Source of the DNA: Muribaculaceae bacterium
GTDB lineage: Bacteria > Bacteroidota > Bacteroidia > Bacteroidales > Muribaculaceae
Direction: 5' to 3'
Assembly (NCBI GenBank): GCA_023665425.1
Contig: JAMPDX010000001.1
Location: 287,025-351,024 of the forward strand
Length of the DNA: 64,000 bases
Position 1 is the first letter of the stretch. Each line of letters starts with the position of its first letter. This document shows positions 40,917-56,385 of the stretch, in pieces. A program made the position numbers and the translations under genes. Under the pieces are notes generated by a model that saw only the letters and a list, made by a program, of their open reading frames with translations, ran no database searches and was not told where the DNA came from.

Positions 40917-43778
40917 TTACTTATGAATGAGACGGAATGCCTCACGCACCCATATTACCAAAGAGGAAAGGGTGATAATAAGTAAAAGGTCAAATGTGCC
41001 GGTGGGATTGAAATGCCAATCGAGTGTATGTATCATAGGCTCGACGTTGAAGAACTCGTATGCCACCTCCGTGATAAATAGTTGACCTATGAAGATGATG
41101 GCAACAATGGTCCAGAAGCCGCTGCTCATTTTCAATCGGAAGATGCTTTTGCCGGTCTCAAAACTGCGGGCATTAAACATATACCAGAAGTGTGTCCATA
41201 CGAAGATTGAGAATAGCAGCGTAGCCTCAACACCGGACATTTCCCCGATGGCTGATGCCTGTTGCAGCGGCGCATGAAGCATCTGTATGAGGGAAGTGAC
41301 CTCATAATGATTGAAGACCCAGTAAAAGCCAATGGTAATAGCAAAGAATAGCAAGCCCACACAAGTCAACTCAGCAGACATACTACCATTAAGTATTGAT
41401 GCATCCCTGCGGCGTGGCTTGTCCTTCATCACACTGTGAGAGGGTGGCAGCGATGCGAGGGCCATTGCTCCAAAAGTATCCATAATAAGGTTGACCCACA
41501 ACATCTGTGTCACCGTGAGAGGGGAGGTGTTGCCCATAAACGAGCCCACTAACACCAAAAAGCAGGCAGCCACATTGACCGTGAGTTGGAAAAGCAGGAA
41601 GCGCTGAATATTCTTATAAAGTGAACGTCCCCACATCACAGCTCTACCTATGGAAGAGAATGAATTATCGATAATAGTAATATCAGATGCCTCCTTGGCC
41701 ACAGAGGTCCCATCTCCCATTGAGAGCCCTACATGGGCCGTCTTGAGAGCCGGCGCATCATTTGTGCCATCGCCGGTGACTGCCACCACCTCATTATTAG
41801 CTTGCAAGGCCTCTACCAAGCGCTTTTTATCCATGGGCCGTGCGCGTGCTATTATTTTGAGCTCCTCCACACGGTTAAACACCTCATCATCGCTCAAGGT
41901 GGTAAACTCCACACCGGTTATAATATTATTGTCGTTATCTGTTGCATCATTCCACAGGCCTATCTGACGACCTATCTCTTTGGCTGTGCCGGGAGTGTCA
42001 CCGGTAACAATTTTCACCTTGATACCGGCATCAATTACCTCCTTGACAGCTGTCGGCACATCTGCACGGACGGGGTCGGAAATGGCCACTATACCAAGGA
42101 AGACAAGTCCTTTTGCCGATATCTTCCCGTCTGTTATAGCAGGGTCAGTGTCGCTCAATTCCTGATAAGCAAACCCCAAGGTGCGCATAGCTTGATTTTG
42201 ATATTCAAGAAGTTGGGCATCAATTTCTTGCTTTGTGACACCGGATGTATCAGCGCACATTGAGAATACAATCTCCGGAGCACCCTTGACATACAGTATA
42301 TGTTTATCTCCCGCACCCCTAACAACAGTAGCCATATATTTGCGCTCAGTGGTAAAGGGGAGCTCCTCGAGGCGAACAGCTTGCGTGCGGAGGGCTTGAT
42401 AGTCGGCCCCTCGGTCTTTGAGCCACAACAATAATGCCCCCTCAGTAGGATTTCCGAGTATCTGAATCTTCTCTTCCGACATATCAAGTTGAGCGGTGGA
42501 GTTCACGGCTATGCCTTCATACAGCACCTCAGTGGGAGGGTTACCGAAGAAGTTGGTCTTATATACCTGCATGCGGTTTTGGGTCAGCGTGCCGGTCTTG
42601 TCAGTGCAGATGACAGTAGTTGCACCCATAGTCTCGCAGGCATGCATCTTACGCACCAGATTATTAGTCTTTAGCATACGGCTCATGGAGTATGCCAAGG
42701 AGAGGGTGACAGCCATAGGGAGCCCCTCAGGCACCGCTACAACTATCAATGTGACAGCCACCATGAGTGTCTGCAATGTATGGGCAAGAAGCTCCGACCA
42801 TTGCACGGTTGTGGCTCCCGGATTTATCATTGCATACACGCCCAAAACCAACCCGAAGAATATGATAAAGAATGTGATGATGGTCAAGATGCATTTTGTG
42901 CGCGATAAGCTCTTGAATTTCTTGATTACCAGCCAGAAGAAAATTAGTACAGGAAGGACAATGGTATAAGCCTGCCAGTTGGAGATGCCGAGAAAGTGCA
43001 CCAATTGAGCAACAATTATGAGTCCGGCAAAGGCATAACTGGCATTTGTTATCCACACTGCGAGGCCTTCGAGTTGCTCATTGAGCGGGGTCTTGACGGA
43101 GTCGTCTATCTGTGCTTCTTCAAACACCTTGCCCATCTCGGTGGCGTCTCCAACCTTTAGCACACGCATCAGGCCATGCCCTTCCATCACCTTAGTGCCT
43201 CGCAGCACATGATTGGATGGATATGTAGCTTCGGAGTCAAAGTGTGACTCATCAGTAGTTTTGGCGCATAACGGCTCGCCTGTGAGTGTGGACTCATCAA
43301 TGCTAAGAGTAACGGAGTCAATGAGTTCACCATCTGCCGGTATTTCATCGCCGGTATTGATTATGACAATATCTCCCACCACCACATTTTTGCGTGGTAT
43401 TGTGGTGGTATTGCCATTGCGGATCACCTCCACTGCCTCGTCATCGTTTACCTGATTGAGGATGCGAAACGCCTTGTTTGCTCTCTGCTCAAAAATGAAA
43501 GCTAAGATGGTGGCCAGCCCTATGGCCATAAATATGCCAATAGGCTCAAAGAATACTTTCCAGTCATTGCCAAGGCCGAAATATTCGTAAAATGAGATAC
43601 CGATGGAAAGCACACCGGCCACGAGCAGTATGATAATCAGTGGGTCGGAAAACTTATCTAAAAACTGTTTCCACCAAGGTTCCCTTGCGGGAGGTGTAAG
43701 TATATTGGCTCCGTGTTGACGCCTGCTGTCAATGACTTGCTTATCGGTCAGGCCGTTAATATTCTGTGTCTCAGACAT
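40917..43778 (-). CDS. Calcium-translocating P-type ATPase, PMCA type
   Basis: A 953-residue P2-type ATPase. The phosphorylation site is Asp393 in CTDKTGTLTQNRM, the actuator loop is LTGEP, the hinge TGDGTNDAPAL is intact, and the M4 ion motif VAVPEGLPMAV (PEGL) marks calcium pumps. Ten membrane segments are visible. It exports Ca2+ or Mn2+ from the cytoplasm. Single gene on the minus strand; an inverted-repeat element (43802-44134) lies 23 nt upstream of the ATG, and no clear promoter was found between them. Confidence 0.94.
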   Translation of the reverse strand: MSETQNINGLTDKQVIDSRRQHGANILTPPAREPWWKQFLDKFSDPLIIILLVAGVLSIGISFYEYFGLGNDWKVFFEPIGIFMAIGLATILAFIFEQRANKAFRILNQVNDDEAVEVIRNGNTTTIPRKNVVVGDIVIINTGDEIPADGELIDSVTLSIDESTLTGEPLCAKTTDESHFDSEATYPSNHVLRGTKVMEGHGLMRVLKVGDATEMGKVFEEAQIDDSVKTPLNEQLEGLAVWITNASYAFAGLIIVAQLVHFLGISNWQAYTIVLPVLIFFWLVIKKFKSLSRTKCILTIITFFIIFFGLVLGVYAMINPGATTVQWSELLAHTLQTLMVAVTLIVVAVPEGLPMAVTLSLAYSMSRMLKTNNLVRKMHACETMGATTVICTDKTGTLTQNRMQVYKTNFFGNPPTEVLYEGIAVNSTAQLDMSEEKIQILGNPTEGALLLWLKDRGADYQALRTQAVRLEELPFTTERKYMATVVRGAGDKHILYVKGAPEIVFSMCADTSGVTKQEIDAQLLEYQNQAMRTLGFAYQELSDTDPAITDGKISAKGLVFLGIVAISDPVRADVPTAVKEVIDAGIKVKIVTGDTPGTAKEIGRQIGLWNDATDNDNNIITGVEFTTLSDDEVFNRVEELKIIARARPMDKKRLVEALQANNEVVAVTGDGTNDAPALKTAHVGLSMGDGTSVAKEASDITIIDNSFSSIGRAVMWGRSLYKNIQRFLLFQLTVNVAACFLVLVGSFMGNTSPLTVTQMLWVNLIMDTFGAMALASLPPSHSVMKDKPRRRDASILNGSMSAELTCVGLLFFAITIGFYWVFNHYEVTSLIQMLHAPLQQASAIGEMSGVEATLLFSIFVWTHFWYMFNARSFETGKSIFRLKMSSGFWTIVAIIFIGQLFITEVAYEFFNVEPMIHTLDWHFNPTGTFDLLLIITLSSLVIWVREAFRLIHK

Positions 43779-43801
43779 AAGTGTCTGCTCAATTTAAATT
43801 A

Positions 43802-44134
43802 AGAGCTTGTTAATAAAAAATATGAACGTCAGGGTCGCAGATGTGCCTCGGATTTAAGGCTGCAGGTGAAGGAACATAGCGGGCTATGTGACTGAACCAA
43901 AGGCCCAAAGATGAGGTGCAGCTGCGAGATATAACGGTAATTTTTGGAAACAAGACTCTCAATGAAATTAAAAGATAATTTATAAATTATGTAAGAATGT
44001 TAAATCAGGGCGTCTTGTTGGCTACTTTGGTTCGTCTTTCCGGTTACAATGCTCGTATTGCTCCCTGCAAGACAAGCCAAATTAGCTCAAAAATACACTG
44101 CCCTGACATTCACATTTTTTATTTAACAAGCTCT
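43802..44134. mobile_element. MITE-like element with ~33 bp terminal inverted repeats
   Basis: The left end (43802-43834) starts AGAGCTTGTTAATAAAAAAT and the right end (44101-44134) is its inverse; they match at 31 of 33 positions with one added base. Both end inside on a CAGGG/CCCTG block. The 333 bp interior has further hairpins: TCGCAGATGTGCCTC pairing with GAGGTGCAGCTGCGA, a perfect ACATAG-CGGG-CTATGT stem, and AACAAGAC with GTCTTGTT. No credible ORF is present, so this looks like a non-autonomous, formerly mobile element. No clear target duplication could be defined. It sits between the Ca2+-ATPase start and the tRNA-Gly terminator. Confidence 0.65.
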
Positions 44135-44141
44135 AAACTTT

Positions 44142-44172
44142 ATGCACCCGACTATGGGAGAGTCGGGTGCAT
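44142..44172 (-). terminator. Terminator-like hairpin after tRNA-Gly
   Basis: A perfect 12 bp stem ATGCACCCGACT / AGTCGGGTGCAT with a 7 nt loop, 11 nt past the tRNA 3' end on the minus strand. Confidence 0.7.
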
Positions 44173-44182
44173 TGGGTTATTG

Positions 44183-44255
44183 AGCGATAGACGGGGATCG
44201 AACCCGCGACCCTCAGCTTGGGAAGCTGATGCTCTACCGACTGAGCTACTATCGC
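44183..44255 (-). tRNA. tRNA-Gly (anticodon CCC)
   Basis: A 73 nt cloverleaf on the minus strand: acceptor GCGATAG / CTATCGC, D-arm with AGCTCAGTCGGTAGAGC, anticodon stem TCAGC / GCTGA enclosing TTCCCAA (anticodon CCC), T-arm GCGGGTTCGATCCCCGT and discriminator T, normal for glycine. CCA is not encoded. A promoter lies at 44318-44349. Confidence 0.95.
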
Positions 44256-44317
44256 ATTTTATGGGAGTGAAGGATAAGCTTCATTTATGAACATGAGGTT
44301 CCTTTGCCTTTGTGCTG

Positions 44318-44349
44318 CAAAGTTACCGCTTTTTATTGGTGTGAGCAAG
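44318..44349 (-). promoter_or_regulatory. tRNA-Gly promoter
   Basis: On the minus strand a -33 CTTG (44349-44346) and a -7 TAACTTTG (44325-44318), 20 nt apart, with the predicted start ~57 nt before the tRNA. Confidence 0.55.
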
Positions 44350-44351
44350 TT

Positions 44352-45719
44352 TTATTTGTGTTTTTTGCCGAATGACGGGTCAATTTTTACCAATAAGCAT
44401 GCCACACATGTGAAGATGCTGCACAATACCACGAATGTGAAGAAATTGATATACCCCTGGGGGGTGGCTGAGCTGCCTATACCAATAGATGGAAACAGGT
44501 CAATAGTGGCAAGCAGGTTGAATATATGTCCGGCGAACATGCCCGGCAGCATCATACCCAAGGCCATGAAGCCGGTGCAGAAGGCATAGTGAGAAGTCTT
44601 CCACGGCCCCTCCGAGAAATATATCAAATACAGCATGAAAGCTGTGAACCCAAATCCGTAACCGAATTGCTCTATAAAGATTGCTGTGTTAATAAATAAA
44701 AGCCCGGTGAGGTTTGTTTCAGGCTGCATTATAGCCAACAGGCAATAGAGAACACAGGGGAGTGTGAGAGATAATGCCATGGGCCAGAGCCACTTCTTTA
44801 AGCCTCCGCGAGAGATGACATATCCGCCCAAAATGCCGCCCACGAGCAATGCTATCATCCCGGTGAGCCCATTGGCAATACCCACATCTTTGGTGGATAA
44901 AGCCAACCCTCCCTCTGCTCTGGCGGCCACGAGGAAGGGGGCCGTAACTTTCAGACATAAGGCCTCCGGCAATCGATACAACAACATAAAAAGCAACGCC
45001 TGTATGATACCTCTCTTGGAGAAGAATGTGGCGAATGTGTGGCAGAAATTGCGAATTATGGTCTTTATACCATCGCTCTTGCGGTCATGGTCTCGCGATG
45101 CTTTTGGCAGAAAGCAGAAGTGATAACATGCTATGGCCAGCAACAATATTGCCACTATCCATAGCACTGATGTCCAGGCGAATACCATGTCCGGGCGTGA
45201 TATGTCAGCCTTGCCGGCTGATGCCTCCTCGATAGCACCGGCTATCCACACCAGTCCGCCGGTGCCAAAAAGGGAGCCTAATCGGTAGAAAGTGCTTCGC
45301 CAGCCTACATACTCGGCTTGCTGGTGATCATTAAGTTGGAGCATATAATAACCGTCAGCCGCGATGTCATGTGTAGCTGACAAGAAGGCGGCTATAAAGA
45401 AGAGCAAAAGTGTGGTGACGAAGAAAATATTTGTCTGTAAAAATATGGCCGTAGCCGCAAAGCAAATACCCATGCACAACTGCATACACAACACCCATGA
45501 GCGCTTTGACGAGAAAATATCGACAAAGGGGCTCCAAAATGGCTTGATGACCCACGGCATATACAAAAGGCCGGTCCAAAAGGCCATAGTGGCCAAATCG
45601 ACATCCAACTTGGTGTATATTAGCACCGTAAGAGTATTTATTACAACGTATGGGAGTGCCTCAGCCACATAAAGTGTCGGCAGCCACGACCATACATACT
45701 TGCCGGAATTGACGCTCAT
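44352..45719 (-). CDS. AmpG-like MFS permease
   Basis: A 455-residue twelve-helix transporter of the major facilitator superfamily. The segment LPTLYVAEALPYVVINTLTV and the ATHDIAADGYYM motif in helix 4 are typical of AmpG-type muropeptide permeases of Bacteroidota. Expected role: import of cell-wall degradation products or related sugars across the inner membrane; substrate unproven. The ATG at 45719 is chosen over 45770 because the promoter boxes at 45740-45771 would otherwise lie inside the coding region. Its C-terminus is 96 nt from the tRNA-Gly gene on the same strand. Confidence 0.85.
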   Translation of the reverse strand: MSVNSGKYVWSWLPTLYVAEALPYVVINTLTVLIYTKLDVDLATMAFWTGLLYMPWVIKPFWSPFVDIFSSKRSWVLCMQLCMGICFAATAIFLQTNIFFVTTLLLFFIAAFLSATHDIAADGYYMLQLNDHQQAEYVGWRSTFYRLGSLFGTGGLVWIAGAIEEASAGKADISRPDMVFAWTSVLWIVAILLLAIACYHFCFLPKASRDHDRKSDGIKTIIRNFCHTFATFFSKRGIIQALLFMLLYRLPEALCLKVTAPFLVAARAEGGLALSTKDVGIANGLTGMIALLVGGILGGYVISRGGLKKWLWPMALSLTLPCVLYCLLAIMQPETNLTGLLFINTAIFIEQFGYGFGFTAFMLYLIYFSEGPWKTSHYAFCTGFMALGMMLPGMFAGHIFNLLATIDLFPSIGIGSSATPQGYINFFTFVVLCSIFTCVACLLVKIDPSFGKKHK

Positions 45720-56238: not shown

Positions 56239-56292
56239 TATCAATTGCTAAAAGTTACAAAATGAAAGAGCATAGTATGTCCTATGCGAGGA

Positions 56293-56300
56293 CAAAGTTA
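56293..56300 (-). promoter_or_regulatory. -7 box of the ribBA gene
   Basis: TAACTTTG on the minus strand. No good -33 TTTG is found at the proper distance. Confidence 0.4.
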
Positions 56301-56385
56301 CTAATTTTCCGTTGAAAAAGCTAAAATAATCTGATTAAATTTTTACTGCCTATGCACCACATTCCGAGAGTCTTGCCGGGGATGC

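Follow-up and report, generated by a model that had tools for sequence, protein, structure and literature searches.

A MITE with IS5-like ends and conserved convergent hairpins in a Muribaculaceae genome

A short inverted-repeat element between an ATPase gene and a tRNA gene

The window analyzed here, a continuous stretch of 64,000 nt from a draft Muribaculaceae genome, contains a compact element lodged between the start of a reverse-strand ORF, which we take by eye to encode a P-type ATPase, putatively a Ca2+-ATPase, and a gene for tRNA-Gly(CCC) (Table 1). The left end of the element (43803) is separated from the ATPase ATG (43778) by 24 bp. Its ends, GAGCTTGTT...AACAAGCTC, form an imperfect inverted repeat of ~32 nt that begins with GAG, closes with CTC and is bordered by TAA on either side; complementarity reaches 84% in the inverted arms detected at 43796-43820/44116-44140 and 91% in those at 43812-43834/44101-44123. 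When the terminal inverted repeat (TIR) pattern was run against the whole window allowing ≤3 mismatches, the right end was the single match (0 expected), the left end escaping detection because it lacks one base relative to the sister copies. No ORF of ≥60 aa lies within the element, the only one touching it running out through the tRNA, and no tandem arrays were found in 43700-44260. The 333-nt strand folds at -121.3 kcal/mol, compared with a mean of -76.9 for 100 shuffled sequences, none of which folded as well (z = -8.7). The preliminary description of this DNA had proposed a MITE-like element with long imperfect TIRs beside tRNA-Gly(CCC), and the arms, the fold and the position of the tRNA gene confirm it.

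Table 1. Features of the element and its surroundings (coordinates within the window)
Feature	Coordinates	Strand	Remarks
Complete MITE	43803..44133		331 bp; limits from TIRs and target-site duplications
Left target-site duplication, TAA	43800..43802		from the sequence and the duplications of sister copies
Right target-site duplication, TAA	44134..44136		from the sequence and the duplications of sister copies
Left TIR	43803..43834	+	one base deleted relative to the family
Right TIR	44102..44133	-	outermost 25 bases agree at 22 positions with the L233 IS5-family element (left end)
Hairpin A, long stem with conserved apex	43834..43928	+	limits from the fold
Conserved apex core GGAACATAGCGGGCTATGTGACTGA	43871..43895	+	sole match in the window at ≤3 mismatches; 0 expected
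Hairpin B, inverted diverged copy of hairpin A	44009..44099	-	apex 44027-44078; outer limits approximate
tRNA-Gly(CCC), neighbor	44182..44255	-	ARAGORN; Rfam RF00005
Neighboring ATPase ORF	40917..43778	-	ATG at 43778

The interior consists of two convergent hairpins with the apex GAAGGAR-N4-GCGRGC-N4'-YGACYGA. With R1, a covariance model built from 25 alignment rows that exclude the window copy, the apex of hairpin A (43857-43908) scores 58 bits, and hairpin B, which is also present in the predicted fold, scores 28 bits (E = 2.4e-6). A weak match to the model at 56253-56304 (14.1 bits, E = 0.07) was rejected as a third element; it has no convincing TIRs and was judged to be a chance match or a decayed remnant.

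Dispersed copies and target-site duplications

A BLASTN search for further copies, which the preliminary description had proposed, located matches to the element at 89 places in its own genome (2.17 Mb in 36 contigs). These include seven full-length copies of 88-100% identity, counting that of the window (the others are 88-94% identical to it), the nearest sister copies measuring 332-333 bp, as well as a sister family with GAGTGTGTC ends at 74-76% identity and shortened forms of ~160 bp that retain only the left hairpin. Similarly, a TIR pattern of this kind gave 80 matches in the same genome, versus none with the reversed control, and many contig ends of the draft coincide with matches to the element.

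Pairing the ends of own-genome copies in the collected loci, with ≤3 substitutions in each TIR and no N between them, yielded 17 elements, 16 of which are flanked by identical 3-bp TWA sequences (10 TTA and 6 TAA), the single discordant copy having TTA/TAA flanks. Neither TAA nor TTA equals its own reverse complement, so these flanks represent a direct duplication rather than an extension of the inverted repeat. In other genomes, identical 3-bp flanks were present in 34 of the 56 hairpin-bearing elements with GAG/GAC/GGC-type ends and absent from the remaining 22; where TWA occurs on both sides in this class, the two flanks agree in 32/37 cases. At 331 bp, within the 50-600 bp of MITEs, the element thus lacks a transposase ORF, has TIRs and a target-site duplication, and is multicopy, dispersed and non-syntenic, as MITEs are.

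Several other arrangements were seen. Two ultra-short elements, L104 (C34:546) of ~59 bp and L106 (C11:286480) of ~56 bp, consist of little beyond the two TIRs, and at L103 and L105 lone TIR copies lie shortly upstream of apparent reading frames, as possible co-opted promoters or leaders. At L112 (G000:C11:592071-592537), a ~190-bp repeat similar to the RAYT-linked family interrupts a MITE copy, and a short sequence, AATTTATAAA, is duplicated where the two join.

BLAST matches to the element were obtained in 22 of 36 same-genus relatives and in 1 of 24 genomes of other genera. Counting weak paralogues, a query with the N-terminal part of the ATPase had matches in 55 of the 61 same-genus genomes. 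Upstream of 29 other orthologous ATPase loci, we found neither the hairpin core within 700 bp (≤1 mismatch; 0/29) nor a tRNA within 1400 bp (0/29), the scan extending as far as each locus reaches (310 bp in one case). The ATPase-tRNA gene order of the window copy was not seen in these relatives, and with the order itself differing, the comparison yielded no empty site for this copy. The preliminary description had named a single-copy element at the same place in all relatives as the finding that would speak against mobility; what we observe is a multicopy element whose core is missing upstream at 29/29 other ATPase loci. Two of these loci, L338 and L358, appear by eye to have other element types just upstream of the same ATPase gene, one GAGAGTG-ended and the other a decayed AGTA-like type, with the cores decayed or missing.

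An IS5-family insertion sequence with matching ends

We then scanned the collected loci for matching ends located 700-3500 bp apart. In a same-genus genome, such ends, bordered left and right by TTA, delimit a 991-bp insertion sequence (L233:788-1778). Of the 25 positions of its left end, GAGCTTGTTTAAAAACAAATGTGAA, 23 agree with the sister copies L002 and L004 (23/25); compared with the window copy, the identity is 22/25 for the right end and, ungapped, 16/25 for the left end, which has lost a base. The transposase gene contains a run of N, and its two halves match NF033580 at 65 and 60 bits, relative to a cut-off of 110 bits set for the whole protein; DDE_Tnp_1_2 and DDE_Tnp_1 are further matches of one half, and DUF4096 of the other. 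A second insertion sequence, L234, from another same-genus genome, encodes a protein scoring 184 bits, above the NF033580 cut-off, and has non-identical flanks (TTA on one side, TAA on the other). A third, L238, with TAA on both sides, matches PF13586 with one internal stop, and a hairpin-bearing element starts directly beside it. The hairpin core is absent from L233 and L234.

The own draft genome yielded no intact partner and no PF13586 match, the one partial match to PF01609 covering 60/200 positions and scoring above the cut-off; the assembly, which breaks at these repeats, may have left the insertion sequence out, or the genome may have lost it. For the parental transposase that the preliminary description had called for, the genus thus offers a candidate in L233, and the draft itself no intact one. 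Taken together, the TIRs, the TWA duplications, the dispersed copies and the matching IS5-family end identify the element as a non-autonomous IS5-type MITE, and the earlier suggestion of a non-autonomous mobile element is borne out by copy number, duplications, differing location and the partner with matching ends. The IS5 family includes groups with TNA targets, such as IS1031.

The same scan also returned matching-end pairs in L137, L120, L274, L142, L157, L194 and L213; in the first three, to which inspection by eye extended, no transposase was recognized between the ends. At L137 (6731-7682), the end of a hairpin-bearing element and a second matching TIR enclose ~0.95 kb with a nuclease-like frame of 131 aa, which by eye appears to be the C-terminal part of a PD-(D/E)XK transposase-family protein. 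TIR ends of the Prevotellamassilia type number 180 and 63 in two Prevotellamassilia timonensis genomes; an insertion sequence with such ends was considered and dropped, no transposase being recognized by eye in the ten stretches examined.

A hairpin core shared by elements with different ends

In many relatives, the best BLAST match to the element covers nt ~50-110 rather than the ends. An exact scan with the core, which was collected by sequence pattern, found at least 116 stretches in a collection of species genomes, and all 80 records listed belong, by title, to Bacteroidales. The taxa among the matches listed include Muribaculaceae, Paramuribaculum, Prevotella, Prevotellamassilia timonensis, Bacteroides, Bacteroidaceae, Porphyromonadaceae and Candidatus Amulumruptor, among others. 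Of the exact cores with sufficient flanking sequence (43 further instances were too close to the locus end), 70/80 are bracketed by an inverted repeat of ≥17 nt, versus 5/298 control points.

The bracketing ends fall into different types. Elements with GAG/GAC/GGC ends are mostly ~320-340 bp long with two cores, some GAG-ended ones being ~200 bp, and those with GGGGTG-type or AGTA-type ends are ~190-205 bp long with one core. Hence, to judge from these single-core types and the ~160-bp forms, two hairpins are not obligatory; where cores do lie <260 bp apart, they are convergent in 33/36 pairs and divergent in none. Identical 4-bp flanks, mostly T..A, occur in 9/23 GGGGTG-type elements, five of them palindromic, and AGTA-type elements have TA/TA flanks in 16/19 cases; since TA is palindromic, the latter cannot separate a duplication from a longer repeat. 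Accordingly, the TWA class is the only one in which a duplication is well supported. The apex is thus found in MITEs of Muribaculaceae, Prevotella, Prevotellamassilia and other Bacteroidales with differing TIRs and flanks.

In a survey of 295 genomes from the order, which took in four genomes of the own family, counts were high only for the own genome (71) and another member of the family (27); four more genomes gave a single match, as many as the reversed control. The core family is abundant in some lineages and not general. No core was matched in plasmids, phages gave one 25-nt match, and viral contigs gave two matches, of which the one examined adjoins, by eye, an apparent tRNA in the host flank.

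Conservation of the apex fold

Among unique contexts of the pattern GGAR-N4-GCGRGC-N4-nGACYG, which does not demand pairing, all four N pairs are Watson-Crick in 180/187 instances, and the set includes eight different fully paired stems. Covariation was assessed in an alignment (A1) of 25 diverse rows, without the window copy, in which all four apex pairs were required to be Watson-Crick. The covariation score was 0.554, compared with 0.199 for shuffled alignments (0/500 as high) and ≤0.092 for slid ones, and 49 cells had changed on both sides, compared with 14.8 (0/500). Pairs in which both sides had changed (7 versus 5.5 in shuffles; 76/500) and further pair types (17 versus 16; 187/500) did not exceed the shuffles notably in number in these 25 rows, so that two of the five covariation measures lie within the shuffle range.

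Outward from the apex stem, the order of pairs is A.G, G.A, G-C, A-U (or G-C), A.G and G.A; this series places a tandem G.A step on either side of two standard pairs. Over positions 43500-44500 of the window, Rfam models at E ≤ 1 matched only the tRNA, apart from two hits far below the gathering score, and 10 further loci at the gathering threshold yielded only RNase P and two tRNAs. We also considered a hammerhead-like CUGAUGA/GAAA motif present in some copies and discarded it, since it does not occur generally and has no Rfam match. The alternative wording of the preliminary description, a conserved structured repeat family, proved right as well, as attested by apex conservation, folds and covariation, and it is the more interesting half of that interpretation.

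Strand asymmetry of the fold

In 38 representatives chosen so that their flanks are <55% identical, the strand bearing the core folds better than its complement in every case (38/38), with a mean z of -6.7 relative to shuffles; one of them, L117, folds little better than its shuffles (z = -0.9). When the core was swapped for a neutral hairpin, the core strand remained the better one in 35/37 elements, versus 60/112 ordinary windows, the other 2/37 of these flank-only folds favoring the opposite strand. With arms swapped between families, the core strand was still favored in 90/109 combinations, the mean difference shrinking from -9.2 to -4.2 kcal/mol, which indicates that base composition explains part of the asymmetry.

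Mismatches within the stems are strongly biased. G.A outnumbers T.C by 161 to 4, compared with 503 to 177 in swapped arms (Fisher p = 3e-14), and G.U outnumbers A.C by 78 to 24, compared with 360 to 201 (Fisher p = 0.017). At one apex pair, the tally over 156 instances is 75 G.T, 48 G.C, 25 A.T and 1 A.C, the underlying pattern (GG[AG][AG]...[AG][AG]C) partly fixing the G.A positions and requiring two of the four stem pairs. The mismatch bias and the prevalence of G.T at this pair favor RNA over single-stranded DNA without being decisive; G.A and G.T pairs are tolerated in single-stranded DNA, too, and the core strand also folds better with DNA parameters (37/37).

Promoters and orientation relative to flanking genes

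We found no convincing internal promoter in 24 representative elements. A -33/-7 promoter pair occurred once over the two strands together (0 on the core strand, 1 on the other). For the -7-like box alone, the core strand gave 10 occurrences (1-6 in five shuffles) and the other strand 3 (1-5), the excess on the core strand being possibly a hint and nothing firmer. The view of the preliminary description that the element, lying so near the ATPase ATG, must carry or replace the promoter of that gene would accordingly be no more than a possibility. Relative to flanking genes, called by ORF length only and with instances <1 kb from the locus end dropped, 65 cores comprised 20 in sense and 19 in antisense orientation, 16 in divergent and 7 in convergent gaps, and 3 inside a called ORF. 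The balance in co-directional gaps gives no sign that hosts use the hairpin in a fixed sense, and a role as a host cis-regulator was rejected on account of this unbiased orientation.

A folded cargo of mobile elements

The element has IS5-like ends and TWA duplications, its copies are dispersed, and its fold is conserved and strand-specific. We favor, with a probability of roughly 0.7, the interpretation that it is a MITE moved in trans whose conserved convergent hairpins work as folded RNA. An IS5-family transposase would recognize the matching ends and mobilize the element in trans, and the hairpin would act as folded RNA in transcripts that cross it. As the two hairpins face each other, transcription from either side would give one correctly folded hairpin, so that a convergent pair fits an orientation-independent role, in agreement with the balanced orientation of the cores (20 versus 19); single-core elements show that some families manage with a single hairpin. 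The hairpin might shield the neighboring operon from the effects of insertion, through anti-polarity, RNA processing or stabilization, or it might be the target of an RNA-binding protein that favors persistence of the element; anti-polarity and RNA processing are our leading guesses.

More generally, the hairpin looks like a conserved, single-strand-folding cargo moved by changing transposon ends. It is an evenly balanced question, in our judgment, whether a structured RNA cargo has been re-packaged in MITEs whose ends changed from one transposase group to another, with the hairpin as the persisting lineage; the end types would then be GAG/GAC/GGC (3-bp TWA), GGGGTG-type (mostly T..A, 4 bp) and AGTA-type (TA).

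The folded cargo is probably RNA, as far as sequence comparisons can tell. Strand-specific folding would be the same for single-stranded DNA, which could act during replication or transposition and be bound by the transposase, an HUH/Y1 enzyme or a host DNA-binding protein, precedents being the REP hairpins for RAYT enzymes and the attC sites for integron integrases. The result with DNA parameters, the independence of core orientation from neighboring genes and the GGAR tetranucleotide 5' of the palindrome, loosely similar to the GTAG of REPs, are compatible with a role of this kind, which we nevertheless consider unlikely: the duplications and TIRs fit a DDE transposase acting on double-stranded DNA, A.C is almost absent from the apex position at which G.T is commonest, and no core (≤5 mismatches) was present in the 30 Y1 loci examined among the matches listed, the own genome's single Y1 match lying in a different repeat array. 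That array (L249, G000:C20:8328-8666 and flanks) is a dense series of another repeat, with GGCGGGCTACGCACGCC and ACCGTGTACACACGG hairpins, around a gene for a 155-aa Y1/RAYT-like transposase, apparently a classical REP/RAYT system.

Common descent of the foldback interior of an ordinary MITE, with functionless hairpins, would account for the 88-94% identity of the other full-length own-genome copies to that of the window and for the two covariation measures within the shuffle range, and many MITEs are foldback sequences, according to the available part of a review. We regard such an origin as improbable in view of the compensatory changes, the 38 representatives with dissimilar flanks, the retention of the apex across TIR types and a G.A bias far above the swapped-arm control. 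Finally, the position 24 bp from the ATPase ATG is what one would see if the element were regulatory DNA of the host at the ATPase/tRNA locus, with a chance resemblance to a transposon; its multiple copies, its target-site duplications and the lack of a core or tRNA upstream of the 29 other ATPase orthologues make this extremely improbable.

Relationship to known elements

As a mobile element, this MITE is of a known kind. Its affinity to the IS5 family (NF033580 type) is evident from the end shared with L233 (23/25), the 3-bp TWA duplication and the occurrence of L233 and L234 in same-genus genomes, the difference being that the MITE has no transposase, whereas L233 and L234 have no hairpin core. 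We know of no Correia, ERIC, BOX or QMITE element with one apex conserved across different TIRs. These small non-autonomous elements, described as giving folding transcripts, some with RNase III, promoter or sRNA effects, resemble the window element in size and lack of autonomy and differ in their hosts, as far as the available excerpts go (PMC10969869, PMC5896051). IS5-like ends have already been reported for BrickBuilt of Porphyromonas gingivalis, an intergenic MITE with TIRs like those of P. gingivalis insertion sequences classed as IS5 and, in the sections available, no transposase remnant (PMC4596501). BrickBuilt is thus likewise a Bacteroidales intergenic MITE with IS5-like ends; compared by description, its interior is a 23-nt minisatellite, whereas the window element has no tandem repeat (PMC4596501). 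REP/BIME sequences, units of ~20-37 nt with a GTAG-type tag that are linked to Y1 transposases, share with it the inverted palindrome pairs, the short 5' tag and the interspersed distribution, according to the excerpts available (PMC2817692), and lack its combination of TIRs and target-site duplication. A RAYT/BIME reading, in which the apex and its inverted partner resemble GGAG-tagged REPs, was rejected, there being no linkage of the core to Y1_Tnp in the 30 loci of the matches listed. The available portions of open-licence full texts contained no paper with the apex sequence or with a Bacteroidales MITE family bearing a conserved hairpin. Within this literature and the Rfam thresholds used, a conserved apex common to MITEs with different ends is apparently undescribed.

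MITEs are usually seen as decayed deletion products with drifting interiors. Here, an interior apex is preserved, with compensatory changes, in elements whose ends differ, so that the benefit of an interior to non-coding transposons becomes testable. These observations point to an apparently undescribed RNA (or single-stranded DNA) motif, characterized by tandem G.A pairs and present in abundance in some Bacteroidales genomes. Retained in related bacteria despite the differing ends of the elements that bear it, the hairpin probably has a function that has yet to be described.
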